Shown here piece after piece: positions 7,398 through 30,904 of a DNA stretch of 58,302 bases. Position numbers and translations under genes: made by a program. How positions within the stretch are numbered: the stretch's first letter is position 1; every line of letters begins with the position of its first letter. Source of the stretch: an uncultured Roseburia sp. (GTDB lineage: Bacteria > Bacillota > Clostridia > Lachnospirales > Lachnospiraceae). Where the stretch lies: NCBI GenBank assembly GCA_947649645.1, contig CANSSP010000020.1, positions 1 to 58,302 of the forward strand, given 5' to 3'. The notes below the pieces were generated by a model. It had not been told where the DNA came from, did not search any database, and saw nothing but the letters and a program-made list of their open reading frames with translations.

Positions 7398-9134
7398 ATG
7401 GCAGAATATTTATCACCAGGCGTTTATGTAGAAGAATTTGAATCCGGCGGAAAACCGATGGAAGGCGTGGGCACCAGCACAGCCGGATTTATCGGCCTTG
7501 CAGAGCGCGGAGCCGTCGAGGGCGTCCCGCAGCTCGTCACAAACTTTGCGGATTTCAGACGAAAATATGGCGGATATCTCTCCGAAAATGAATTTGGAGA
7601 ATATCGCTTCCTGTCCTACGCCGTGGAACACTTTTTTATCAACGGCGGCTCCCGGGCTTTTATCGCACGTGTGGCGCCCGGCGATGCAAAATGCGCTGTG
7701 GGCAAAATTCCCACAGAAAATCCGACGCTCACGATCACCGCAAAAAATCCCGGTGTCTGGGGCAACCATATCAATATTGTCATCACACCGTCGGGCAAAG
7801 CAAAGACACAGATCCTTGATCTCTTAGAGACGGCGGACGGAAGACGGTATCACGTAAAAAACGCGGCCGGTTTTCATGCGGGAGATATCGTAATGTACTC
7901 CGACAAAACCACAATCAGTTATAACAAAGTCGTAAAATGCCAGGACAACATCATTGAATTTGCCACGGAGTATGACGAGGACGTCGTCGACAAAGGGCTT
8001 CTGCCCACAAAAGTCATCACAACCTGCGAATTTAATATGGAAATAAGAGTTGACGACCAGACAGAACTCTACGAAAATGTTTCTTTCAATATTGAAGCCG
8101 CCTCCTACATCGAAAAAAAGCTTGCAAAATCAGAGATGATTGCGGTGTCATACAAAGCAGACGACACAGAAGAAATCCTGCCGCCTTTTCTGACTCTGGC
8201 CGGTCAGGACACACGAAAAGCCGTCCTGGCCGTAACTTTAAGCGGCGGAACCAACGGAAACGTGGCGACGCTTTCCGCGGCCGAATTTATCGGGACAGAC
8301 AACGGAGCCGGAAAAAGAAGCGGAATACAGGCATTTTTAGACAATGACAACGTATCGATCATGGCGGTTCCAGGCGTCACCGACCCAAACGTACAGCTGA
8401 TGCTGGTGGCGCACTGCGAAAATGCGGCGAGTCGTTTTGCCGTGCTGGACGTCCCAAAGGATGCAAAAAAAGTCGACGACGTGACGGCGCACAGAGAAAT
8501 TTTTGATTCCAGCTATGCCGCGCTCTACCACCCATGGCTCACCGTTTTTGACCCGCTCGACAAGCGCAATATCGCAGTCCCGCCGTCCGGCTCCATCCTT
8601 GGAATCTACGCAAGAAGCGATAACACAAGAGGCGTTCACAAGGCCCCGGCCAATGAAGTCGTGCGCGCCTGCGTCGGCCTGGACTGTCCGTTTAACAAGG
8701 GAGAACAGGACATCTTAAACCCAAAAGGCGTAAATCTGATCCGTTCCTTCCCCGGAATGGGCATCCGCGTCTGGGGCGCCCGGACAGCCACCAGCAATCC
8801 GGGCTGGAAATATATAAACGTCCGCAGGCTGTTTATTTTTATCGAGGAGTCCATCAAAGCAAATACAAACTGGGCCGTATTCGAGCCGAACGACGAAGTG
8901 CTCTGGGTGCGTGTCAAACGGACCATTGAAGTGTTTCTGACGGGAATGTGGCGCGACGGCTCCCTTGCGGGCACCTCGCCGGCCGAAGCATTTTTCGTCA
9001 ATATCGGACATGATACGATGAGTCAGGACGATATCGATAACGGACGCCTGATCTGTGTAATCGGCGTCGCGCCGGTAAAACCGGCCGAATTTGTCATTTT
9101 CCGGATTTCGCAGAAAACGAGCGATTTGAACTGA
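7398..9134 (+). CDS. contractile sheath protein
   Basis: 578-residue tail sheath protein of the Pvc2/Afp2 and phage-sheath family. It forms the spring-like tube around the inner tube and contracts to drive it through a target membrane. The N-terminus MAEYLSPGVYVEEFESG is the typical sheath start, and the following GTSTAGFIGLAERG is a strongly conserved family block. The C-terminal NVRRLFIFIEESIKANTNWAVFEPN and the final WRDGSLAG region match the conserved sheath core that binds the tube. It is the first gene of the operon, and only one sheath gene is present, where Photorhabdus systems have three. Translation may depend on the hairpin described just upstream. Confidence 0.97.
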   Translation: MAEYLSPGVYVEEFESGGKPMEGVGTSTAGFIGLAERGAVEGVPQLVTNFADFRRKYGGYLSENEFGEYRFLSYAVEHFFINGGSRAFIARVAPGDAKCAVGKIPTENPTLTITAKNPGVWGNHINIVITPSGKAKTQILDLLETADGRRYHVKNAAGFHAGDIVMYSDKTTISYNKVVKCQDNIIEFATEYDEDVVDKGLLPTKVITTCEFNMEIRVDDQTELYENVSFNIEAASYIEKKLAKSEMIAVSYKADDTEEILPPFLTLAGQDTRKAVLAVTLSGGTNGNVATLSAAEFIGTDNGAGKRSGIQAFLDNDNVSIMAVPGVTDPNVQLMLVAHCENAASRFAVLDVPKDAKKVDDVTAHREIFDSSYAALYHPWLTVFDPLDKRNIAVPPSGSILGIYARSDNTRGVHKAPANEVVRACVGLDCPFNKGEQDILNPKGVNLIRSFPGMGIRVWGARTATSNPGWKYINVRRLFIFIEESIKANTNWAVFEPNDEVLWVRVKRTIEVFLTGMWRDGSLAGTSPAEAFFVNIGHDTMSQDDIDNGRLICVIGVAPVKPAEFVIFRISQKTSDLN

Positions 9135-9158: not shown

Positions 9159-9584
9159 ATGGCGACATATCCATATGGAAAATTCAGATACAAAGTTGAA
9201 ATCGACGGAATTACGGCGGGAGGTTTTTCGGAAGTTACCGGATTCGACGCATCGATCGACGTCATGGAATACCGGGAAGGCGATATGGTCCAGACACCGA
9301 TGAAAATCCCCGGACTCAAAAAATACGGAAATATTACGCTCAAAAAAGGACTTGCAGATTCCATGGCGCTCTATGAATGGCTGGACGCCGGAGTCACCGG
9401 GGAAGTCGAGCGCAAAACCATCACGATCACCCTGCTGGACGCAACGGAGAGCGCCGTCGCGTCCTGGCGCGTCATCAACGCGTGGCCTGTCAAATACACG
9501 GGACCGGATTTTAACGCAACCTCATCGGAAGTGGCAGTGGAGACGCTTGAAGTCGCCCATGAAGGAATGACGAGAGAATCCTAA
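9159..9584 (+). CDS. inner tube protein (gp19/Hcp-like)
   Basis: 141-residue tube protein of the T4 gp19-like family, whose hexamers stack to make the rigid inner tube. The start MATYPYGKFRYKVEIDGITAGGFSEVTGFD and the central YREGDMVQTPMKIPGLKKYGNITLKKG are diagnostic of Pvc1/Afp1-type tubes. It follows the sheath gene by 24 bases with AAAAAGGAG upstream. Its small size and strong fit to the family suggest it is the main tube subunit, while the second tube-like gene at 10161 is more likely the tube initiator. Confidence 0.96.
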   Translation: MATYPYGKFRYKVEIDGITAGGFSEVTGFDASIDVMEYREGDMVQTPMKIPGLKKYGNITLKKGLADSMALYEWLDAGVTGEVERKTITITLLDATESAVASWRVINAWPVKYTGPDFNATSSEVAVETLEVAHEGMTRES

Positions 9585-9601: not shown

Positions 9602-9973
9602 ATGGCATTTCAGACAGAATACAACTTCATGCTGCCGCGGGGGTATCTTGACAAAGACGGCATTCTGCACAGGGAAGGGACGATGCGCCTGGCAAACGCA
9701 GGGGATGAGATATTGCCTTTAAAAGACCCCAGAGTCCAGCAGAATCCCGGATACCTCACCATTATCCTGCTTGCGCGCGTAATCACCAGCCTGGGATCGC
9801 TTCAGGGCGTGGACACAAGAATCATTGAGCGTCTCTACACGATGGACCTGGCCTATCTGCAGGATCTTTACCAGCGGATCAACACAATGGAAAGCCCGCA
9901 CTATAAAACCGTCTGTCCACACTGCGGACAGGAGATCGCCGCTCCCATAAATTTTATGGAAGCCGGTCTATAG
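9602..9973 (+). CDS. tail-assembly chaperone-like protein, 0-frame product
   Basis: 123-residue protein found after the tube gene in many injection-system loci. It resembles a phage tail-assembly chaperone by position and character (MAFQTEYNFMLPRGYLDKDG, then LARVITSLGSL). A single CPHCG knuckle near residues 104-108 suggests partial metal binding. The zero-frame product stops at TAG 9971-9973, but a slippery A AAT TTT lies five codons before the stop and the -1 frame continues into the conserved DUF6760-like domain. Two products are therefore likely: this short one and a 187-residue fusion, as in the lambda G and GT proteins. AAAGGAACG lies upstream of the ATG. The chaperone role is inferred. 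Confidence 0.8.
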   Translation: MAFQTEYNFMLPRGYLDKDGILHREGTMRLANAGDEILPLKDPRVQQNPGYLTIILLARVITSLGSLQGVDTRIIERLYTMDLAYLQDLYQRINTMESPHYKTVCPHCGQEIAAPINFMEAGL

Positions 9974-9986
9974 AAATATACCCGGC
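9930..9986 (+). promoter_or_regulatory. programmed -1 ribosomal frameshift cassette
   Basis: Four elements fall in order. An internal Shine-Dalgarno-like AGGAG (9930-9934) is followed after 14 bases by the slippery heptamer A AAT TTT (9949-9955, in phase with the zero frame). A 6-base spacer (9956-9961) and a GC-clamped stem-loop (9962-9986; GCCGG pairs with CCGGC and further pairs lie above) follow. The zero-frame stop falls inside the hairpin. This matches the dnaX and lambda G/GT type of signal. Confidence 0.75.
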
Positions 9987-10164
9987 AGATAAAATTTATG
10001 AAGAAGCGGCATTTATCGCATATTATATGCACTGGGCGCACGACGAAATCATGGCCATGAGCCATATGGACCGCCTTCGCTGGTGCAGGGAGATCTCAAA
10101 AATCAACAGTCAGCTCAACCATGAGCCCGAGAATGTCTTTGAACCAAAGGGGGTAAATCTATGA
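9955..10164 (+). CDS. DUF6760-like domain read by -1 frameshift (fusion extension)
   Basis: The open frame from the slip site to TGA 10162-10164 encodes IYPADKIYEEAAFIAYYMHW and then a second conserved-looking half (MDRLRWCREISKIN). This pattern is the small DUF6760-type protein found in injection-system loci. In this frame there is no ATG, GTG or TTG between the in-frame stop at 9904-9906 and an ATG at 10027, which is already inside the conserved domain. Separate initiation would therefore lose half the domain. Reading by -1 slippage at 9949-9955 gives a 187-residue fusion, joining 9602-9955 to 9955-10164. Its TGA overlaps the next gene's start as ATGA, implying translational coupling. It is inferred to act like the T part of phage chaperones, joining chaperone and tube components. 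Confidence 0.75.
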   Translation, partial: YGSRSIEIYPADKIYEEAAFIAYYMHWAHDEIMAMSHMDRLRWCREISKINSQLNHEPENVFEPKGVNL

Positions 10165-10610
10165 CAGATATCCTGCGCGGGCACTATGCCTCAGACTTCC
10201 GCTTTCACGTGCTCACAGGGATCAGCCCCTTTGCCGGGATACCCGGATCAGATATCTGTTTTTCCAGAATCTCAGGAATCGGATCCACGGCAGAATCAGA
10301 AGAAATCGCGGAGGGCGGAAGAAACAGCGGCCCGCACCTCCTGTCCGTCCCCGCAAAAAGGCATACGCCGCTCGTATTGGAGAGAGGCGTTCTTCCCGTC
10401 AGCCACTGGATGTACCGGTTAAAGCCGGGCATGAGACTGGGAACGTGGCTGCAGATCATTGTAATGGACGAGAGCGGCCTTCCGACGTCCAGACAATTCT
10501 GGATTGAAGACGGCATCGTCACAAAATGGGAGCTATCCGATTTAAACGCACTGGGCAATTCCATTCTGATCGAACGGATGGAAATCCTCCACGACGGAAT
10601 CAACTACTGA
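10161..10610 (+). CDS. second tube-like protein, probable tube initiator
   Basis: 149-residue T4 gp19-like protein of the Pvc5/Afp5 type. The beta-rich core has the family's pattern (FRFHVLTG, FSRISGIGSTAESEEIAEGG, and WMYRLKPGMRLGTWLQIIVMDE). In better-known systems such a protein forms the first tube ring and connects tube to hub. It starts at the ATG overlapping the stop of the frameshift product (ATGA), with AAAGGGGGT 8 bases upstream. It is more divergent than the main tube gene at 9159, consistent with a specialised ring rather than a repeated subunit. Confidence 0.88.
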   Translation: MTDILRGHYASDFRFHVLTGISPFAGIPGSDICFSRISGIGSTAESEEIAEGGRNSGPHLLSVPAKRHTPLVLERGVLPVSHWMYRLKPGMRLGTWLQIIVMDESGLPTSRQFWIEDGIVTKWELSDLNALGNSILIERMEILHDGINY

Positions 10611-11469: not shown

Positions 11470-11502
11470 GCAGCCGGGAAAAATACGGAAGTGAGGAAAA
11501 AC

Positions 11503-12174
11503 ATGACAGAAAAAGCGGTGATCAGAGTGCTGGACGGAGAAAACAACGACACAGAAATCGAAGTGATGATAAACCCCGAATCCTATCACCTCTCCTGCGG
11601 CACCTCCTACAGTGAAAAAAAAATTCCGGGATTAAGCGTCCCGGTAAGCCAGTATATTTCCGGAGAAAGCATGACAATGGACATGACACTTATCTTCGAC
11701 ACATACCAGCCCCCGACGCCGCTTAATGCAGAAGGCGGGACAAATGTTGCGGATAAGACAAAACCGGTCCGTGATCTGACATTCCCCGACGGAACGCTGC
11801 ACCGGCCTCCCACGGTCGCTTTTTGCTGGGGTACTCTGCAGTTTAAAGGCATCGTCACAAACGTCAAGGAAACTTATACCATGTTTCTCTCAGACGGAAC
11901 CCCCGTGCGTGCCAGGGCAGAACTATCTTTTCGTTCCGTATCCGACCCCGACGCAGCAAAAAGACAGACACCTTTTGAGTCGCCGGACCGCACAAAAATA
12001 CGGATCATCCGCGAACACGAACAACTCTGGAATTATGCATATCTGGAATACGGCGACGCCGCAAAATGGCGGGAAATCGCACGGGCAAACGGTATTATGA
12101 ACCCGCTTGACCTGAAACCGGGAATGCAGATCCGGCTTCCCGCATTACAGGAGACAGGCAAAGATGGAAACTGA
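11503..12174 (+). CDS. LysM adaptor protein (Pvc7/gp53-like)
   Basis: 223-residue baseplate protein with a C-terminal LysM module (ARANGIMNPLDLKPGMQIRLP at the end). In related systems this protein glues the hub to the wedges. The N-terminal part (IEVMINPESYHLSCGTSYSEKK and MTLIFDTYQPPT) is the conserved CIS adaptor domain. The ATG at 11503 is preferred because GTGAGG precedes it by 6 bases; the upstream GTG at 11491 lies in that ribosome site. It overlaps the following hub gene by 11 bases. Confidence 0.9.
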   Translation: MTEKAVIRVLDGENNDTEIEVMINPESYHLSCGTSYSEKKIPGLSVPVSQYISGESMTMDMTLIFDTYQPPTPLNAEGGTNVADKTKPVRDLTFPDGTLHRPPTVAFCWGTLQFKGIVTNVKETYTMFLSDGTPVRARAELSFRSVSDPDAAKRQTPFESPDRTKIRIIREHEQLWNYAYLEYGDAAKWREIARANGIMNPLDLKPGMQIRLPALQETGKDGN

Positions 12175-13240
12175 TCTGATGACGGCGGTCTTCTCCGATG
12201 ACGAGCTTCGAAAAAAATACAAAAACTACAGCGTTCCCGCAGCAAAAATATGGGTCGGAAAACCAGCGGAGGATCTCACCGCAGCCTGCCACGCACAGAT
12301 TGAAAACATCCGGATATCCATGAACTTAAAAGATGCCGCAAGCGTCAGCTTTACCGTCGCCAATATTTACGACCTTAAAAGCCACAGCTTTCACAGCGGC
12401 GTCCGCGAGGCGCTTTGTCTTGGAAACATACTAAAAGCTGCAATCGGATACGAGTCGGAACTGGAAACACTTTTCTGCGGTTTTATCTACGAAACAGCCA
12501 TACAGTTTGGAGAAATACCGACAATGCATGTCACGGCCGTGGATGTCCGGCGTCTGATGTATGATAATTACAGAAAAAACTATGAGTGGCAGGCGCCGAC
12601 ACACTCGAAACTTTTTGAACAGATCCTCTCACACTATGAAAAACTCGGCCTGACACTTACAGTGGACGACACGACAGCCGAACTGACGTCACCGCTGCTG
12701 CAGAATGGAAATGACCTGAAAATGGTGACGCAGCTCTGCAGGGCGGCAAACCGCAGATTTATCGTCTGCGGCGGCAGAGCCTATTTCACGGAAAAAAGCG
12801 AGGACAGCCCCGTAACGACACTGCGCTTCGGACAGAACCTGCTCTCCTTTTCCCAGCAATATGGCTATACGGACACAGAAATCACTGTTCGCGGAACTTT
12901 AAAACAGGGCGCGCAGCAGACGATTGAAACCCGGACTTACAGGTCCTCAGAAAAAAGCGTTCTTTCCGACAAAACAGCCAGAATCGTTACCCTGCCGGAT
13001 ATCAGCTCCACAGAAGAACTTTCCGCGCGCGCCGAGCGGGAAAAAGAAGCCCTGAAAGAAGAAAAACAGTCCGCGCGCGGGTCGTGCGTGGGGATACCCG
13101 TGCTGGTCCCGGGGCGCTATCTTAAAATTGAAGGACTGGAAGAAACCATCAACGGAGATTATTACATTACATCCGCGGAACATTCTTTCGGGAGCGACGG
13201 GTATACGACCGACTTTACACTTGGAGGAAAGCGTGAATAA
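12164..13240 (+). CDS. baseplate hub protein (gpD/gp27-like)
   Basis: 358-residue hub protein of the phage late control D/VgrG N-terminal family. Beta-rich segments (KIWVGKPAEDL, ASVSFTVANIYD, GYESELETLFCGFIYE) and the domain around SKLFEQILSHYEKLGLTL fit the hub fold. Hub and spike are separate genes here, whereas in VgrG-type systems they are one polypeptide. This resembles the T4 gp27 plus gp5 arrangement. The gene overlaps the LysM gene and precedes the spike by 12 bases. A second ATG at 12179 lacks a ribosome site. Confidence 0.87.
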   Translation: METDLMTAVFSDDELRKKYKNYSVPAAKIWVGKPAEDLTAACHAQIENIRISMNLKDAASVSFTVANIYDLKSHSFHSGVREALCLGNILKAAIGYESELETLFCGFIYETAIQFGEIPTMHVTAVDVRRLMYDNYRKNYEWQAPTHSKLFEQILSHYEKLGLTLTVDDTTAELTSPLLQNGNDLKMVTQLCRAANRRFIVCGGRAYFTEKSEDSPVTTLRFGQNLLSFSQQYGYTDTEITVRGTLKQGAQQTIETRTYRSSEKSVLSDKTARIVTLPDISSTEELSARAEREKEALKEEKQSARGSCVGIPVLVPGRYLKIEGLEETINGDYYITSAEHSFGSDGYTTDFTLGGKRE

Positions 13241-13252
13241 TAAGGAGGAAAA

Positions 13253-14080
13253 ATGAGCTTTTATGACGAGCTGCTTGATTTAGAGGAAAAAGAGCATGAC
13301 GATGCGGCCTCCATCCAGGGAATTGTCCTGGGCGAAGTCACCGAAAACTGGGACAACGACCACCCGGGCATGGTAAAAGTCCGTCTGCTCCTCGGCGAAG
13401 AGGGAAAAAACAGCCTTGGCTGGGTTCCGGTCGCCTCCGCTTACGCAGGCAACGGGTTCGGAGCCTATTTTCTGCCTGAAATCGGCTCGCAGGTCATTGT
13501 CGCATTTCATCTGGGACGCCTTGAAAGCCCCTACGTTATCGGCTGCCTCTGGAATCAGACGAACGTTCTTCCCGAAAATACCGCAGTCGAAAACAACACT
13601 TTGAAAACGATTCTCACCAGGGGGGGCAACCGGATTACGGTCTCGGACGAGAATGAGAAAGAAAAAATCACGATTATGACCAGGAATGAACTTTCCTTTA
13701 CGCTTGACGATGAGAACCAGAAATTATCTTTACAGGATAAAGAAGGGGAAAACGCACTTGAGATCAACGCAAAAGAAGGCGTAATCACATTCACCGCCAA
13801 AAACAAAGCCATATTCAGAATCAATGAAAAAGAACTGCTTCTTCTTGACGGCGGAAGTTTAAGGGCAGACATAAATACAGACAATATCAGTCTGCAGGCG
13901 GGACAAAAACTGGAACTGAAAGGGCAGAATACAACACTTGACGGAAGCAATACCGACATCAAAGGCCAGAATATCAAAGTAGAAGCACAGGCTTCCCTTG
14001 GACTGAAAGGAACGGCTTCTCTGAAGGCAGAGAGCAGCGGCATGACGGAGCTGAAAGGTTCCATGGTAAAACTGAACTGA
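13253..14080 (+). CDS. spike protein with OB-fold and beta-helix (gp5/VgrG C-terminal-like)
   Basis: 275-residue spike. Residues about 20-105 form the gp5 OB-fold (GIVLGEVTENWDNDHPGMVKVRL, then GSQVIVAFHLGRLESPYVIG). The remainder is a repetitive beta-prism or helix typical of the needle shaft (KITIMTRNELSF, LSLQDKEG, LELKGQNTTLDGSNTDIKGQ). It is the central needle below the hub, and the PAAR-like protein encoded at 26813 would cap its tip. AAGGAGGAAAA lies directly upstream of the start. There is no enzymatic (lysozyme-like) extension. Confidence 0.93.
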   Translation: MSFYDELLDLEEKEHDDAASIQGIVLGEVTENWDNDHPGMVKVRLLLGEEGKNSLGWVPVASAYAGNGFGAYFLPEIGSQVIVAFHLGRLESPYVIGCLWNQTNVLPENTAVENNTLKTILTRGGNRITVSDENEKEKITIMTRNELSFTLDDENQKLSLQDKEGENALEINAKEGVITFTAKNKAIFRINEKELLLLDGGSLRADINTDNISLQAGQKLELKGQNTTLDGSNTDIKGQNIKVEAQASLGLKGTASLKAESSGMTELKGSMVKLN

Positions 14081-14118: not shown

Positions 14119-14547
14119 ATGAGCAAAACGACAGATATTCCGGATTTCCTTGGCTGCGGGTGGAAATTTCCCCCGAAAGTCAATCCCCTGACGGGAAAAA
14201 TAGAAACTTCTTCCGGAGAAGAAGATATCGCAGAGGCAATAAGGCTGATTCTCTTTACCGGAAAAGGGGAGCGCGCCATGCGGCCGGAATTTGGATGTGG
14301 AATCCGCAGATATGTCTTTTCCGATATGCGTATGACAGACCTGAAAAGTATGGAGCAGGAAATTACGGAAGCCCTGATACGCTGGGAACCCCGGATAAAA
14401 AAGCCTGAAGTATCCATCGGCAGGGAGCAGATGGCAGATGGCATACTGACCATTGAAATCCGATACATCGTCCGCACGACAAACAGCCCCTATAACATGG
14501 TATTTCCCTTTTATGTAAACGAAGGCAACGGCGTCGGGCCGCTATAA
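14119..14547 (+). CDS. baseplate wedge protein gp25-like
   Basis: 142-residue gp25/GPW-family protein. The family signature appears as EDIAEAIRLILFTGKGERAM followed by RPEFGCGIRRYVF, which includes the conserved GER-x-x-RPxFG. This small protein starts sheath assembly at the baseplate in T4, type VI and extracellular systems. The ribosome site CGGAGGAAAG is 5 bases from the ATG. About 70 bases separate it from the large wedge gene. Confidence 0.95.
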   Translation: MSKTTDIPDFLGCGWKFPPKVNPLTGKIETSSGEEDIAEAIRLILFTGKGERAMRPEFGCGIRRYVFSDMRMTDLKSMEQEITEALIRWEPRIKKPEVSIGREQMADGILTIEIRYIVRTTNSPYNMVFPFYVNEGNGVGPL

Positions 14548-23814: not shown

Positions 23815-25449
23815 ATGTCTTTTCAGATATCCAGAATTACAACAGGCGCACGTTACCTCACCCGTAAACTGACCCGCGCTGCCTTTCTGCCCATAAAAAG
23901 AAGAATACATACCATTATCCGATCTCTGTCTTTCACCGAATCTGTCAATGCGGCGGCGCAGGATATCCGCAAAAAAACAGAGGAAATACTCACGGCGCAG
24001 CCCGATGTGAACAGAGATTATATCCCCGCAGGCCGTTTTCTGATATCCAGAAAATTTCTGAGCCTTTTTCTTCTCCTGCTGCTTGTGTGCGCCATCTTTC
24101 TGGTCCGCTGGGGCGTGCCGTCTGCACAGGCAAAATTTTTCACGAAAACAATGGAGGTCAATTCCCCTGCGATGCACCTTTACACCGGAAAGGTAAAACT
24201 GCTTTCACCCGGAACCCCCTGTGTCATTTTCGAAGGAAGGCTGGATAAAGGAAGAGTGAACGGCTGGGGTACGCTCTACGATTACCACGGAAAACTCCTC
24301 TACCAGGGCAATTTCGAGATGGAAATGTATTCGGGAAACGGACAGACCTATTATCCCGACGGTTCCGTACAGTACAGGGGAACCTTTGATCAAAATAAAT
24401 ATCAGGGAAACGGATGTCTCTATTATGAAAATGGACGTCTTCGATATGAGGGGTCTTTTGCCGCAGGCCTTTTCGACGGCGCCGGAATATCTTATACGGA
24501 AGACGGAAAAACGGAATATAAAGGCGATTTTGCCGCGGGCGTATATTCCGGAGAGGGAACGCTTTATCAAAACGGTTCTCCCGCCTATGAGGGCGGATTT
24601 CTCAATGGCAGATATTCCGGAGAAGGAACGCTTTATCATCCCGACGGATCGATTGCCTGCCAGGGCGAATTTAAAGGAGGTGTGCTGGTACAGGGAACCG
24701 GAACGATCAAAAAGGAAGATGGCATTCTTTATGAAGGCGGCCTGACAGAAGGCATTTCAGACGGCTATGGAAGGAAATACCGCAGCGACGGCAGCATTCT
24801 TTATGAAGGAGAATTTGCGAACGGTCTCTACGAGGGAACCGGAACCCTGTACGGAAAGAAAGGGCTGCTCTACGAAGGCGGATTTCTGGCAGGACAATAT
24901 TCGGGGGAAGGAAAACTGTATGAAGATATCAGCGGAATCCTGATCTATGAAGGTGAGTTTAAAGAAAATCGGTATGAGGGAACCGGAACGCTATATATGG
25001 GAGAAAACGTCTCTTATAAAGGGATGTTTGCAGGCGGATTAAAAAATGGTGAAGGAAACGCTTACGAAGACGGCGTTCTGATCTATGAAGGAACTTTTTC
25101 CGGGGATCTATATGACGGAAGCGGCCGATTGTATGACCCACAGACGGGAAACCTGATTTATAACGGCTCTTTTTTCCAGGGGAAAAAATCAGGCGAAGGC
25201 ACACTTTACAACCCACAGACCAGCCTTCCGGTCTACTCCGGCGGATTCCGGCTGGACCTATACGACGGAGAGGGAAAACTATATGGCACAGGCGGAGAGC
25301 TTTTATACGAAGGCGCCTTTTTGCTCGGCGTAAAAAACGGAAAAGGCATTACTTACGATGGACCGACCGGCGCCGTACTGGAAGAAGGCATTTACAGAAA
25401 CGGTGTTCTTGTACAGAAAGAATCCCCGCCGGAAATTATGGAGGAATAA
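23815..25449 (+). CDS. membrane-anchored MORN-repeat protein
   Basis: 544-residue protein. Residues 1-80 are basic and cytoplasmic-like, residues 81-98 are a transmembrane helix (FLSLFLLLLLVCAIFLVRW), and residues about 140-535 hold roughly 16 MORN repeats of the form YEGxFxxGxYxGxGxLY, each about 20-24 residues. By the positive-inside rule the repeats would lie outside the cytoplasmic membrane. MORN sheets are protein or lipid contact surfaces. Between the kinase-like membrane gene and the terminator gene, this protein may anchor the injection particle or form a sleeve at the membrane. The ribosome site is weak (GCAGGT), so translation may partly depend on the preceding gene. Confidence 0.85.
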   Translation: MSFQISRITTGARYLTRKLTRAAFLPIKRRIHTIIRSLSFTESVNAAAQDIRKKTEEILTAQPDVNRDYIPAGRFLISRKFLSLFLLLLLVCAIFLVRWGVPSAQAKFFTKTMEVNSPAMHLYTGKVKLLSPGTPCVIFEGRLDKGRVNGWGTLYDYHGKLLYQGNFEMEMYSGNGQTYYPDGSVQYRGTFDQNKYQGNGCLYYENGRLRYEGSFAAGLFDGAGISYTEDGKTEYKGDFAAGVYSGEGTLYQNGSPAYEGGFLNGRYSGEGTLYHPDGSIACQGEFKGGVLVQGTGTIKKEDGILYEGGLTEGISDGYGRKYRSDGSILYEGEFANGLYEGTGTLYGKKGLLYEGGFLAGQYSGEGKLYEDISGILIYEGEFKENRYEGTGTLYMGENVSYKGMFAGGLKNGEGNAYEDGVLIYEGTFSGDLYDGSGRLYDPQTGNLIYNGSFFQGKKSGEGTLYNPQTSLPVYSGGFRLDLYDGEGKLYGTGGELLYEGAFLLGVKNGKGITYDGPTGAVLEEGIYRNGVLVQKESPPEIMEE

Positions 25450-25450
25450 A

Positions 25451-26026
25451 ATGGCATATACGGCAATTGCAGATACAGGCATCCTGTTAACCGATTTATT
25501 AAAAAAACATCTGGTTCCCGATGTGGTAAAAACACCGGATCAGATCGGACTTTTAGGCCCGTCCGACAAAAGCGACTGCAGTGTCCGCGTCTGGCTCTAC
25601 GATATCAGAGAATGCGGACAGCTGCGAAGCCATACGATGATCTCAACAGACTGCGGGCGGCAGAAATTTCCGCCCGTCTATGTAGATCTCTTTTATATGA
25701 TTACCGCCCGCTCAGACAGCGATATCACCTGCCGCGCCAGGGAAGAACAGTATCTGCTCGGAAAAATCCTCCAGGTCCTTAATGACTATGCAGTCATCCG
25801 TCTTCCGGAGGAAGACGATCCGAAAGAACAGAAAAACGTCTGCTCTGTTTCGCTGCTGAATTTATCCGTTGAAGAAAAAATGCAAATTTTCAGCATGCCG
25901 GATACCGGATACCGGACATCGCTTTTTTATGAAGTCGGCCCGGTTCCCATTGCATCCGCAAAAGACCGCCAGGTGAAACGTGCCGTCGATCTGCAGTTTT
26001 CACTGGAAGAAATGGAGAAAAAATGA
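25451..26026 (+). CDS. tail terminator, Pvc16-like (DUF4255)
   Basis: 191-residue protein of the DUF4255/Pvc16-Afp16 family, which caps the distal end of the tube and sheath. Recognised blocks are AIADTGILLTDLLKKHLVPDV, VRVWLYDIREC, and LFYMITARSDSDITCRAREEQYLLG. GGAGGAATAAA immediately precedes the ATG, and the upstream MORN gene's TAA lies in the ribosome site. It overlaps the next gene by ATGA. The presence of this cap supports a free, finite-length particle. Confidence 0.92.
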   Translation: MAYTAIADTGILLTDLLKKHLVPDVVKTPDQIGLLGPSDKSDCSVRVWLYDIRECGQLRSHTMISTDCGRQKFPPVYVDLFYMITARSDSDITCRAREEQYLLGKILQVLNDYAVIRLPEEDDPKEQKNVCSVSLLNLSVEEKMQIFSMPDTGYRTSLFYEVGPVPIASAKDRQVKRAVDLQFSLEEMEKK

Positions 26027-27202: not shown

Positions 27203-27229
27203 CCTGTGTTTCTTTTTAGGAGGACAACG

Positions 27230-28885
27230 ATGAAAATAGGACTGCGGGCAAAATTTGGCTTCCTCTTTCTGGCATTTGGAATCACTCTGCTGATTGCAAT
27301 CTGGCTGACCGTTTATTCATTCGCCACGATCGTTTTTATCAATCACTACACCAGTTCCATAGATGAGATCATCGATCTGGCCGCTTACAGCCTTGGCATG
27401 ACGCTCCAGCCGGAAGATCTGCACCGGTATGCGAAAACAGGGGTTGCGGATGAACACTATAATGCCGTTCTTGAACAGATGAAAAATATCCGGGAACGCT
27501 CCGGACTGGCCTATCTCTATATCATTTATCCCACGGCAGACGATATGGCCGTATGGGTATTTGACGCATCCGAGGACGGAAATATCCTTGGAACTCCCGT
27601 TCACAATTACAATGCCGACGCATCCCGGACCGTGCGCGAGGTATATCACACCGGAAAAAAGAATGAAAAATTTGATATCACAGAAACTGAGGAAGGGGAT
27701 GTCGTCTCCATTTACTATCCGATCAAAGACGAATCGGAACAGACCATCGCCGTGCTCGGCGGCGACCTGCCGCTCAGGGAAATCACAGACATCCTGGTAG
27801 AAAGCATGATTCCGGTCAGCCGACAGATCATACTTGTGACAACACTCGGAATGCTCTCCCTTCTGTTATATGTACAGTTCGGTCTGATCCGTTCCATCCG
27901 TCGGCTCAGACAGGGTGTGGAAAAAATGGCGGACGGCGAACTTGGCGTACAGGTCATTTTAAAACGCAGAGATGAGATCGGAGAGATCTCACAGGTATTC
28001 AACCGGATGTCTTCGCGTATCCAGGGGCACATTAAGGAAATGGATGAATTAAACAAAGCCTATCGGAGATTTCTGCCACCGGAAACGTTTGAAATTCTGC
28101 AGAAGGACAGTGTCATTGATATCCGCCTGGGCGACGAAGCACAGACCCCGCTCACCGTTCTTTCAATGGAACCTTCCTGTTTTCGTGAAAAAACGAGCGA
28201 CATGTCCGCAGAAGAAGTATTCCGGTATATCAACGGCATATTACAGTATATGGTTCCTTCCGTCCTGACACATGGCGGGACTATCGAACGGTTTGAAAGA
28301 GCCGGTGTACGTTCCTTTTACCGGAAAAGTGCGGCATATGCGCTTCGCTCCGCCATATCGGCCGGAACGGCCATAACCGAAGCGGGAGAACATTTCTGCG
28401 CAGGAATTGCACAGGGACAGGTCATGGTAGGAATCGCGGGGCACGAGGAGAGAATGAATATCATAAGCCTCTCTGATCAGAAAAAATTGTCGGAATTTCT
28501 AATGGAAATCGCGCCACAATACCACGCCTGCATCCTGATCAGCGAAGGTGCGGCGTCAGAAATCCCCGCCTTTAAGGATTCATACCACTGCCGCTTTCTT
28601 GGTTATCTCAGACTCACTGCATCAGGCAAGCTGCAGGGATTTTACGACGTCTTTGACAGTGACAGCCCAAAAGACCGCAGGTACAAACAGATGACCAGAC
28701 AAACCTTTGAAGAGGGCGTACGGTTTTTCTGCGAGGGACGCTACACCAGAGCCCGGCAGGCTTTTATTGCAGTGTTAAGGCAGTACCGGGAAGACGGCGC
28801 GGCAAAAGCTTATCTTTATCGGTGCAGCGACAGACTGCAGGAAAAAGAAAACATGGACAACGTATGGATAGAAGAACTGAAATAA
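27230..28885 (+). CDS. membrane sensor with HAMP and inactive cyclase-like domain
   Basis: 551-residue inner-membrane signalling protein. It has TM1 (about 12-38), an extracytoplasmic sensor domain (about 39-195, with a Cache-like YLYIIYPTADDMAVWVFDASEDG), TM2 (199-220) and HAMP (about 221-272). A class III nucleotidyl-cyclase homology domain follows (FLPPETFEILQKDS, then SVIDIRLGD), about 281-475, and a helical TPR-like tail ends the protein. The metal-binding aspartates of true cyclases are lost: the FSDIRGFT motif reads LSMEPSCFRE and the GDAIMALF motif reads RAGVRSFY. It is probably a signal relay rather than an enzyme. AGGAGGACAACG precedes the ATG. Within the operon it may sense the trigger for loading or firing. 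Confidence 0.82.
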   Translation: MKIGLRAKFGFLFLAFGITLLIAIWLTVYSFATIVFINHYTSSIDEIIDLAAYSLGMTLQPEDLHRYAKTGVADEHYNAVLEQMKNIRERSGLAYLYIIYPTADDMAVWVFDASEDGNILGTPVHNYNADASRTVREVYHTGKKNEKFDITETEEGDVVSIYYPIKDESEQTIAVLGGDLPLREITDILVESMIPVSRQIILVTTLGMLSLLLYVQFGLIRSIRRLRQGVEKMADGELGVQVILKRRDEIGEISQVFNRMSSRIQGHIKEMDELNKAYRRFLPPETFEILQKDSVIDIRLGDEAQTPLTVLSMEPSCFREKTSDMSAEEVFRYINGILQYMVPSVLTHGGTIERFERAGVRSFYRKSAAYALRSAISAGTAITEAGEHFCAGIAQGQVMVGIAGHEERMNIISLSDQKKLSEFLMEIAPQYHACILISEGAASEIPAFKDSYHCRFLGYLRLTASGKLQGFYDVFDSDSPKDRRYKQMTRQTFEEGVRFFCEGRYTRARQAFIAVLRQYREDGAAKAYLYRCSDRLQEKENMDNVWIEELK

Positions 28886-28897
28886 AGGAAGGTCTGT

Positions 28898-30904
28898 ATG
28901 GAATTTCTGGAGACAACGATCTACAAGGTCATCCGCCGCACTTACTTTTATCTAAAAGAGACAGGAAGGGAAAACAGTTTTGATCGTTTCCCCTACCTGA
29001 ATATCCTCACACAACGTCTGACACAGGATGCTGCAGAAACATGGCCGGAAGGCGGTGTGATATCGTCGGCACGCTATCACAGACTGCTTGAAAAGCTCAC
29101 CCTGGAAAGTGAAGCGCCTGCTGTCCTTCGCACGGCTCTTGATCTGAGTCTGGCTGCACTGCACGTCCCGGAATTTGTCGGCTATTTAAACTATTATACC
29201 GGAAACGCCGTGACAATCCAGCTCGCCTGCGATCTTGAAGGCATCACATATCCCGCCTATGCGGCCATGGCCCGCTGCCTGCAAAAGCTTCAGTACGTCT
29301 GCCGGGTAGACTGGTCAAAAAATCCTCTCTCCCACGCCGCAATCGAAGCGGACAACCGCCTTCTTGCCTATCTGACAGGATCGGACGATCTCACCCCGCC
29401 GCTCTGTCGGAAAGCAGAATGGTTTTTGCGGGAACAAAAACTGCACCCGTTGTTTACATGGTGTGAACTGAAAGAAAAATGCGTGCGTCTGCTGACACAA
29501 AAAAAAGACAAAAGCCCGATCCTGCAGATTGCCGGGACCGGCGGGAGACGGTTTCTGGCAAAACACACGGCCCGATCGCTCAACAGGAATCTGCTGCTGA
29601 CCGACGCCGGACATTTCCGTGACTGTTTTGGAGACAATGACGGATCATTTCCGATGGAACTGATCCGTGAAGCGTTTCTTCACGACGGCGCAGTCTGTAT
29701 TTACGGCATCGAATCTGACCTGTTTGATAAACTACAGATCAAAACGGAAGATTTCTACAGAACAGTAGTCCTCCCATTCCGTGAAACCAGAATCCCGCTT
29801 ATTTTATGCACGCAGCGAGATCTCCTTTTTCCGGAGCGAATCCCGTGCGCAGTACTGCCGGAAACCACGCAGCCGGAGCGGGAAGCCGTCTTTCGCGGCT
29901 TTGCCGGGCTCTTCGGTTTCCCGGCCGACTGTACCGATCTTGCCGCCCGCTTCCGGCTTTCTCCCAGCCAGATTGCAGAAGCGTCCTTAACCTGGCAGTC
30001 CGGTCATTCTTCTCTCACGAAAGTATGGGATAAAAAAGCTTTCTCCCGTATCTGCTGTGAAATCCTCTGCAGAGAGCAGCCCGGAAATTCCGGCACGCTC
30101 CTATACCCCTCCGTCTGCCCTTCGGATTTAAAAGTGCCGCAGAATATACAAAACCTGCTGCAGCAAATCTGCTGCAGCGTGACGAAAAGCGGACAGATTT
30201 TTGAAGAATGGGGATTAAAACGCCTTTACCCATACGGAAGGGGCACAAGCGTTCTTCTGACCGGCCCGCCGGGAACGGGAAAAACGATGACAGCCCACGT
30301 GATCGCAAAAGAGCTTGATCTGCCGCTCTACCAGGTAAATCTGGCGAACGTTGCCGATAAATATATCGGTGAGACAGAAAAGCACCTGGAGCAGATTTTT
30401 TCTTTTGCAGAAAAAGCGAATGTGGTATTGTTTTTCGATGAAGCGGATTCCCTTTTCGGAAAGCGGGCGGAGGTGACAGAGGGAAAAGACCGCTATGCAA
30501 ACATGGAAGTCTCTTATATCCTGCAGCGCATGGAACAATCCGACGGCATCGTGATCCTTGCCACAAATTTTTATCACAACATCGACAAGGCTTTTCTGCG
30601 GAGATTAAAATATGTCCTGAAATATCAGATGCCGGACGAAGCTCTCCGGCGCAGTATCTGGGAAAGCTGTCTCCCGCCCACCATACCACATGAAAAACTG
30701 GACATCCCATACCTCGCAAGACAATTTGAATTTACCGGCGGAATGATCAAAAATGTGGTATGGAATGCCTGCGTAAAAGCCGTCTGTGCAAAAACCGGAC
30801 TTTCCATGGAACACCTTCTTACCGCCATCTCCGAAGAATACGAAAAAATGGAACAGACGGTGGGAAAAAATGTCTGGGGTGAATACGGTTATCTGATGCC
30901 TTAA
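28898..30904 (+). CDS. AAA+ ATPase of the injection system (Pvc15-like)
   Basis: 668-residue AAA+ protein. The C-terminal module is complete: Walker A GPPGTGKT at 456-463, Walker B VVLFFDEAD at 509-517, sensor-1 ATNFYHN near 555 and arginine-finger region FLRRLKY. Upstream, residues about 205-330 look like a degenerate first AAA module (IAGTGGRRFLAKHTARSL where a P-loop would be). In related loci this ATPase helps load cargo or assemble particles. AAAGGAAGG lies 8 bases before the ATG and 12 bases after the sensor gene. It is the last gene of the operon and is followed by a strong terminator. Confidence 0.93.
   Translation: MEFLETTIYKVIRRTYFYLKETGRENSFDRFPYLNILTQRLTQDAAETWPEGGVISSARYHRLLEKLTLESEAPAVLRTALDLSLAALHVPEFVGYLNYYTGNAVTIQLACDLEGITYPAYAAMARCLQKLQYVCRVDWSKNPLSHAAIEADNRLLAYLTGSDDLTPPLCRKAEWFLREQKLHPLFTWCELKEKCVRLLTQKKDKSPILQIAGTGGRRFLAKHTARSLNRNLLLTDAGHFRDCFGDNDGSFPMELIREAFLHDGAVCIYGIESDLFDKLQIKTEDFYRTVVLPFRETRIPLILCTQRDLLFPERIPCAVLPETTQPEREAVFRGFAGLFGFPADCTDLAARFRLSPSQIAEASLTWQSGHSSLTKVWDKKAFSRICCEILCREQPGNSGTLLYPSVCPSDLKVPQNIQNLLQQICCSVTKSGQIFEEWGLKRLYPYGRGTSVLLTGPPGTGKTMTAHVIAKELDLPLYQVNLANVADKYIGETEKHLEQIFSFAEKANVVLFFDEADSLFGKRAEVTEGKDRYANMEVSYILQRMEQSDGIVILATNFYHNIDKAFLRRLKYVLKYQMPDEALRRSIWESCLPPTIPHEKLDIPYLARQFEFTGGMIKNVVWNACVKAVCAKTGLSMEHLLTAISEEYEKMEQTVGKNVWGEYGYLMP

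Follow-up and report, generated by a model that had tools for sequence, protein, structure and literature searches.

A predicted programmed -1 frameshift in the tail assembly chaperone gene of a non-phage contractile injection system

The injection-system operon and its overlapping frames

The window, meaning the whole stretch of 58,302 nucleotides that was analysed, originates from an uncultured Roseburia sp. (contig CANSSP010000020.1). Following matching of its ORFs with Pfam/TIGRFAM-type profiles, the chaperone ORF 9602-9973 was found to be housed in a contractile-injection-system operon with the following features.

7398..9134, + strand: tail sheath protein (PF04984, 3.6e-19; PF17482, 5.2e-19)
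9159..9584, + strand: tail tube protein, adjoining the chaperone ORF on its 5' side (PF06841, 1.3e-44; TIGR02241, 1.7e-41)
9602..9973, + strand: zero-frame ORF, 123-aa tail-assembly-chaperone-like protein with a C-terminal CxxC (CPHC) pair
9930..9934, + strand: AGGAG, possible but weak Shine-Dalgarno-like stimulator, 14 nt upstream of the heptamer
9949..9955, + strand: slippery heptamer A AAT TTT, predicted -1 shift site; AAT and TTT are zero-frame codons
9955..10164, + strand: -1 continuation past the shift, 69 DUF6760 codons and a stop (PF20546, 5.5e-17)
9962..9986, + strand: stem-loop GCCGG(15 nt)CCGGC, 6 nt after the heptamer; arms 9962-9966 and 9982-9986
9971..9973, + strand: zero-frame stop TAG, 15 nt after the heptamer
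10161..10610, + strand: second gp19-like tube protein (PF06841, 6.5e-15), its ATG overlapping the DUF6760 stop (ATGA)
11491-12174: CIS_tube
12164-13240: YQBQ-like protein
13253-14080: spike
14119-14547: gp25
Same operon: two baseplate genes and Tail_P2_I
25358-26023: Pvc16-type cap
28898-30901: AAA+ ATPase

The gene set from sheath to AAA+ ATPase lies in one operon and is that of an extracellular-type contractile injection system. A Pfam scan of the larger ORFs of 7398-30904 found neither capsid nor portal nor terminase genes. A phage origin of the locus was considered and rejected: the chaperone had no match in 50,697 phage records (E up to 0.01), the Nostoc DUF6760 was also unmatched in these records (E up to 1) and IMG/VR yielded a single 14-residue match. 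Downstream of the chaperone and DUF6760, the second gp19-like gene is followed by a 271-aa ORF without credible Pfam match. The chaperone gene comes after the tube gene, and the window yielded no identifiable tape-measure gene. A MORN-repeat protein (23815-25449) and a HAMP/Cache-domain protein (27206-28885) flank the Pvc16-type cap, among the injection-system genes.

The first-frame protein is kin to known tail assembly chaperones. It falls in the Mu gp41 family (phrog_508, 2e-5), and in a second Foldseek examination its predicted fold resembled the HK97 chaperone. A first Foldseek examination against the PDB gave a best E of 0.73, a sequence search of solved structures returned nothing credible, and DUF6760 compared with viral models by Foldseek reached a best E of 1.0.

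The -1 frame is open over 9907-10164, and ATG, GTG and TTG are absent ahead of the DUF6760 domain, which is the only match to this family in the whole genome. Joining 9602-9955 to 9955-10164 results in a predicted fusion of 187 aa, with NF before and YGSR after the junction; TVCPHCGQEIAAPINFYGSR would be the tryptic peptide expected from it. The earlier note, made from the letters of the window, had described a 123-residue chaperone-like gene ending at 9973, a DUF6760-like -1 continuation without ATG, GTG or TTG, a fusion of 187 residues, A AAT TTT in phase at 9949-9955, and AGGAG 14 nt upstream with a 6-nt spacer and a stem at 9962-9986. All of these were recovered as described. Following synonymous resampling of the window junction, some slippery motif was present in 8% of draws, so one locus by itself is weak evidence, and the strength of the case for the predicted shift is its conservation across relatives.

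Conservation of the frame relation and the shift site

Genome contigs were scanned with the chaperone and the best 80 of 133 relatives were taken. To these were added 18 loci from 34 plasmid records matched by DUF6760, three from 41 plasmid records matched by the Nostoc chaperone, 12 from the phylum (398 genomes scanned, 13 matching, among them the window's own), one new locus from two classes (matches in 2/10 and 3/29 genomes), 14 from the window's family (150 genomes scanned, 15 matching, again counting its own) and one viral contig, resulting in 130 loci including the window. Serratia was not represented among the plasmid matches listed (30 of 34 by DUF6760 and 41/41 by the Nostoc chaperone). 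Both parts were present in 125 loci; no recognised DUF6760 was found beside the chaperone in L061, L087, L131, L132 and L133.

DUF6760 lies in the -1 frame in 121/125 loci (kinship ignored), in frame 0 in L071, L073 and L093, and in +1 in L108. In L093 and L108 the chaperone itself contains a frame break; at the true junction both still combine G GGG GAA with the -1 relation. The window and most relatives have a pair of overlapping ORFs of which the second lies in -1 and apparently lacks a start of its own. An in-phase slippery site was scored in 120/121 of the -1 loci, against 18.3 expected from synonymous resampling with each locus's own codon usage; the sole unscored locus, L011, has an ambiguous base (N) ahead of AAT TTT. 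Near the end of the first ORF, the putative slippery sequence takes the form A AAT TTT in 86 of the 121 loci (A-type), G GGG GAR/GGA in 29 (G-type), T TTT TTA/G in five and G GGA AAC in Haloferax L085. The alignment of this junction across related loci, suggested in the earlier note as a check, bore out both the frame and the presence of a slippery site. The downstream -1 frame codes for protein: 1761 synonymous and 337 nonsynonymous single-change codons were counted between A-type pairs 80-99% identical (pairs overlap).

Codon choice at the site was analysed in two sets of loci. Among 87 loci chosen without regard to the motif and carrying Asn-Phe within the last 15 codons, 87/87 spell the pair AAT TTT and 86/87 do so after an A-ending codon (kinship ignored); the exception, L080, carries G GGG GAG downstream. 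Among 71 distinct A-type loci, a set selected by the motif itself, AAT and TTT alone, out of 57 columns with a conserved residue, showed no synonymous variation (median 1.5 bits). In the same loci the preceding Val, Ile or Leu codon always ends in A, compared with 89/538 Val and 124/574 Ile codons elsewhere in the gene. Protein coding does not explain the fixed last base of AAT and the preceding A, because both are free in both predicted proteins. The heptamer was also present in 14/14 further family loci, found via the DUF6760 profile without use of the motif. Its end lies 15 nt from the stop in 66/86 A-type loci.

Most junctions in Cyanobacteriota, Actinomycetota, Pseudomonadota and other Bacillota read NNG GGG GAR (or GGA). 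The G-type site ends 0 or 3 nt ahead of the chaperone stop in 28/29 loci, and in L069, L076 and L080 the -1 frame opens only at this site, which pins the predicted shift to it. Re-pairing in the A site at G GGG GAR requires a G:U pair. In the PRFect paper (PMC10885494), 'fivetwo' sites account for about a thousand annotated phage frameshifts, all GGGGGAA, and re-pairing at GGGGGAA is described as made possible by G:U pairing. When the site type was mapped on a quick protein tree (122 rows, many unresolved branches), counting 'own ATG' and 'none' among the states, parsimony required seven changes against a minimum of four.

Stimulatory elements were examined as well. The window stem folds well, at -10.2 kcal/mol (z -2.46), 4/200 shuffles being equally good. 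Its arms are fully paired in 63/72 A-type loci of the first set, and the Pro codon in the 3' arm, beyond the overlap, is CCG in 68/71. GCCGG is missing at the stem position in 8/14 of the later-added family loci, so the stem is limited to a subclade, in which it is a likely stimulator. A universal stem was rejected, since the A-type stem is confined to this subclade and G-type loci often carry another one. The latter, GGCTACC/GGTAGCC, forms 7/7 pairs in 13/29 loci (own count) with compensatory changes, and does not pair in Streptomyces in that register. When arms were swapped between G-type loci (2000 draws, kinship ignored), no draw attained the real pairing, 13 attained the real double changes and all 2000 attained the real count of pair types. 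For the AGGAG-like element, 20 of the 86 A-type loci have the 5-mer (15.2 expected) and 54 the 4-mer (42.7 expected); these counts are barely above synonymous expectation, and a conserved upstream Shine-Dalgarno stimulator was rejected. The earlier note had spoken of the full set of known stimulators. The elements are indeed present, and the wording was overstated in that AGGAG is not clearly conserved and the stem is limited to a subclade.

The stop of DUF6760 and the ATG that starts the second tube-like gene interlock as ATGA at 10161-10164 of the window, with AAGGGGG upstream; because of this overlap, frameshifted ribosomes would finish on the start of the next gene. An ATGA, GTGA or TTGA overlap between the DUF6760 stop and the next gene was found in 16/85 A-type and 13/29 G-type loci.

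Start codons and competing explanations

DUF6760 could be made separately by translational coupling, with ribosomes restarting in -1 at or near the chaperone stop, sometimes from a non-standard codon and aided by a G-rich or purine ribosome-binding site. A -1 frame is what an ATGA or GTGA overlap produces, and ATG, GTG or TTG stands exactly across the chaperone stop in 11/86 A-type and 8/29 G-type loci (19/115) and in Haloferax L085 (ATGA), where annotation pipelines call it. The G-type loci concerned are mostly Streptomycetaceae and also Rhizobium. Since a start codon spans the stop, re-initiation is permitted at these loci, and GGGGGA sits at Shine-Dalgarno distance from such a start. Against coupling, 57/86 A-type and 21/29 G-type loci (78/115 together) have no ATG, GTG or TTG at or past the shift site, and 36/86 and 15/29, respectively, have none anywhere between the opening of the -1 ORF and the domain; a conserved internal start for DUF6760 was rejected. 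ATA spans the stop in 53/86 A-type and 13/29 G-type loci, the window included, which would serve coupling if so poor a start were used. ATA is a very poor start codon, however, and only NTA can overlap a TAA or TAG stop at this position, so ATA needs no special reason and is read as an Ile of the predicted fusion. Coupling also leaves the synonymous fixation of A AAT TTT unexplained, the heptamer being no ribosome-binding site, and is regarded as unlikely to account for the locus.

Two near-identical Oscillospiraceae loci, L071 and L073, use an independent ATG. They have no slippery site, and DUF6760 begins at its own ATG 12 nt past the chaperone stop, preceded by the Shine-Dalgarno-like AGGTGAT. 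These loci appear to be a natural swap of frameshifting for plain initiation, or the reverse; the mechanism is therefore not universal and the fusion not always needed. According to the earlier note, an intact start for the short gene in related loci, or a heptamer that is not conserved, would speak against frameshifting. Heptamer and frame proved conserved and a conserved start was not found, with L071 and L073 as loci where an intact start does occur.

The remark in the earlier note that the short gene is probably misannotated or missed in related genomes was borne out in 10 annotated plasmid records, DUF6760 being missing in one and having odd starts in four. The annotated starts are ATA in Nostoc, ATT in Pseudanabaena, CTG in one Streptomyces, GTG in four Streptomyces, an internal TTG in Rhodococcus and ATG in Haloferax; the gene was missed in Brasilonema.

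The junction might otherwise be a compact gene border only, the heptamer being kept for dual coding of Asn-Phe and Lys-Phe and the -1 ORF being read from an unrecognised start or left untranslated. Dual coding does constrain the overlap, as the last base of TTT is the first base of the -1 Tyr codon. Yet AAT is invariant in 87 loci and the preceding A varies in one, though both are free in both proteins. Moreover, in 30/86 A-type loci no more than 12 nt of open -1 frame precede the heptamer, so that little of this frame is readable from upstream, and the downstream frame is under clear protein-level selection. A mere gene border is thus very improbable. As to a sequencing error or decaying gene behind the broken frame, L093, L108 and L061 do show frame damage or decay; the -1 relation in 121/125 loci, from many projects and phyla, rules out error or pseudogene as the general cause and reduces its probability to nearly nil.

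The chaperone gene is therefore, with high probability, predicted to yield a 123-residue form and a 187-residue fusion by -1 slippage at A AAT TTT 9949-9955. A programmed -1 frameshift of the G/GT type in a non-phage injection system is the best reading of the compared sequences and is largely supported. The earlier note had put forward a programmed -1 frameshift in this chaperone, an interpretation strengthened by the conserved heptamer and frame and the lack of a conserved start.

In such a frameshift, some ribosomes would slip back one base at A AAT TTT and then read through the DUF6760 frame. The tRNA-Asn and tRNA-Phe would slip in tandem onto AAA TTT, and the stem 9962-9986 may assist slippage in the window's subclade. 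If the labour is divided as between lambda gpG and gpGT, the tape-measure protein would be coated by many short chaperones and the tube subunit brought in by a few fusions via DUF6760, so that the shift rate would fix the ratio of the two forms. If lambda holds as a model, neither product would remain in the finished particle.

The -1 frameshifted chaperone is probably ancestral to the DUF6760 lineage of injection systems (Bacillota, Actinomycetota, Cyanobacteriota, Pseudomonadota), with the sites GGGGGAR, TTTTTTR and AAATTTT exchanged several times and the -1 relation fixed. If so, few frameshifts in bacterial genes would be more widespread, phages and insertion elements aside, and DUF6760 would correspond in injection systems to P2 E'. 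For DUF6760, as yet without an assigned function, a specific role would follow as the arm that frameshifting adds to a tail assembly chaperone, and many contractile injection systems would gain a likely overlooked assembly factor. Gene maps could mislead here: if the chaperone gene were recoded when the operon is cloned or refactored, the fusion would disappear unnoticed. Compared across phyla, the loci would also form a natural series of one recoding event whose shift site has changed or which a plain start codon has replaced.

Known frameshifts and atypical relatives

Phage lambda, whose slippery sequence is G GGA AAG, offers a comparable plan. According to PMC5009743, gpG/gpGT are a short chaperone and a rarer -1 fusion from one start, the shift lies near the end of the first ORF in the tail operon, the products are made at 30:1 and neither stays in the virion. 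Lambda is a phage, whereas the window has A AAT TTT in a non-phage injection system. P2 E/E+E' also uses a -1 frameshift (NC_001895), and its slippery T TTT TTG is found at the junctions of some relatives. The P2 E' extension (PF06528) and DUF6760 align gap-free over 30 columns with hhalign probabilities of 82.5 and 84.1 and E of about 1e-5, a remote similarity; single scans of six DUF6760 members against PF06528 gave one match, at 0.088. In contrast, P2 E itself belongs to PF10109, which is not among the matches of the window protein. Mu gp41 has phrog_508 in common with the zero-frame protein; the Mu shift is -2, however (PMC5009743), and the Mu extension was compared by eye only. The SEA-PHAGES 'fivetwo' GGGGGAA, mostly in tail assembly chaperones (PMC10885494), is the sequence of most G-type relatives; it belongs to actinobacteriophages, whereas the window's own lineage uses A AAT TTT.

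No report of a frameshift in an injection-system chaperone was encountered in the literature covered, made up of article listings and passages of PMC3711429 (its 19,430 clusters excepted), PMC5009743, PMC8718954, PMC13222765, PMC8528098, PMC8213781, PMC11126660 and PMC10885494, most subscription papers falling outside this scope. Within this scope no paper on DUF6760 turned up, nor one on programmed frameshifting combined with contractile injection.

In-frame fusions were brought up by a search using a Nostoc fusion as query. At least 10 DUF6760-bearing proteins stood among 120 matches listed in one search and at least four among 120 listed in another, P0012 being common to both, which makes at least 13 proteins. 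At least five of the matches listed are clean in-frame fusion ORFs (P0225, P0230, P0249, P0256 and P0314, the last with a shortened N-terminus). All five join where the shift is predicted, e.g. ...DGLGGVIGYPLDRL...; because each rests on one contig, an error in a G-run (homopolymer) could mimic such fusions. P0237 is damaged at its C-terminus, P0228, P0270 and P0281 are damaged in the chaperone part, and P0003, P0004, P0012 and P0016 have odd or deleted linkers. T4 chaperones are reportedly the subject of Vladimirov et al. 2022 (Virology).

In one near relative, Lachnoclostridium sp. An131 (L061:4001-4369), an orphan chaperone carries A AGC TTT and no recognisable DUF6760, heptamer and DUF6760 both being lost, a joint loss that speaks for the frameshift. 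No tail gene was seen near it by eye, and it is likely a remnant of a lost system. In two Deinococcus plasmids, an ATGA- or GTGA-overlapping ORF of about 60 aa without match to the DUF6760 profile follows the chaperone (L131:1881-2060, L132:1962-2147), perhaps a different partner in the place of DUF6760. A Treponema succinifaciens plasmid (L133:1504-1878) carries, close to a gene for baseplate V, a remote relative of the chaperone that has no DUF6760 beside it. The proteins P0002, P0226, P0227, P0229, P0231, P0232 and P0242 are 249-260 aa long, and the two that were read, P0002 and P0227, contain two chaperone domains in tandem. Paired chaperone stretches adjoining each other were also observed in the cyanobacterial plasmid loci L092 and L093.
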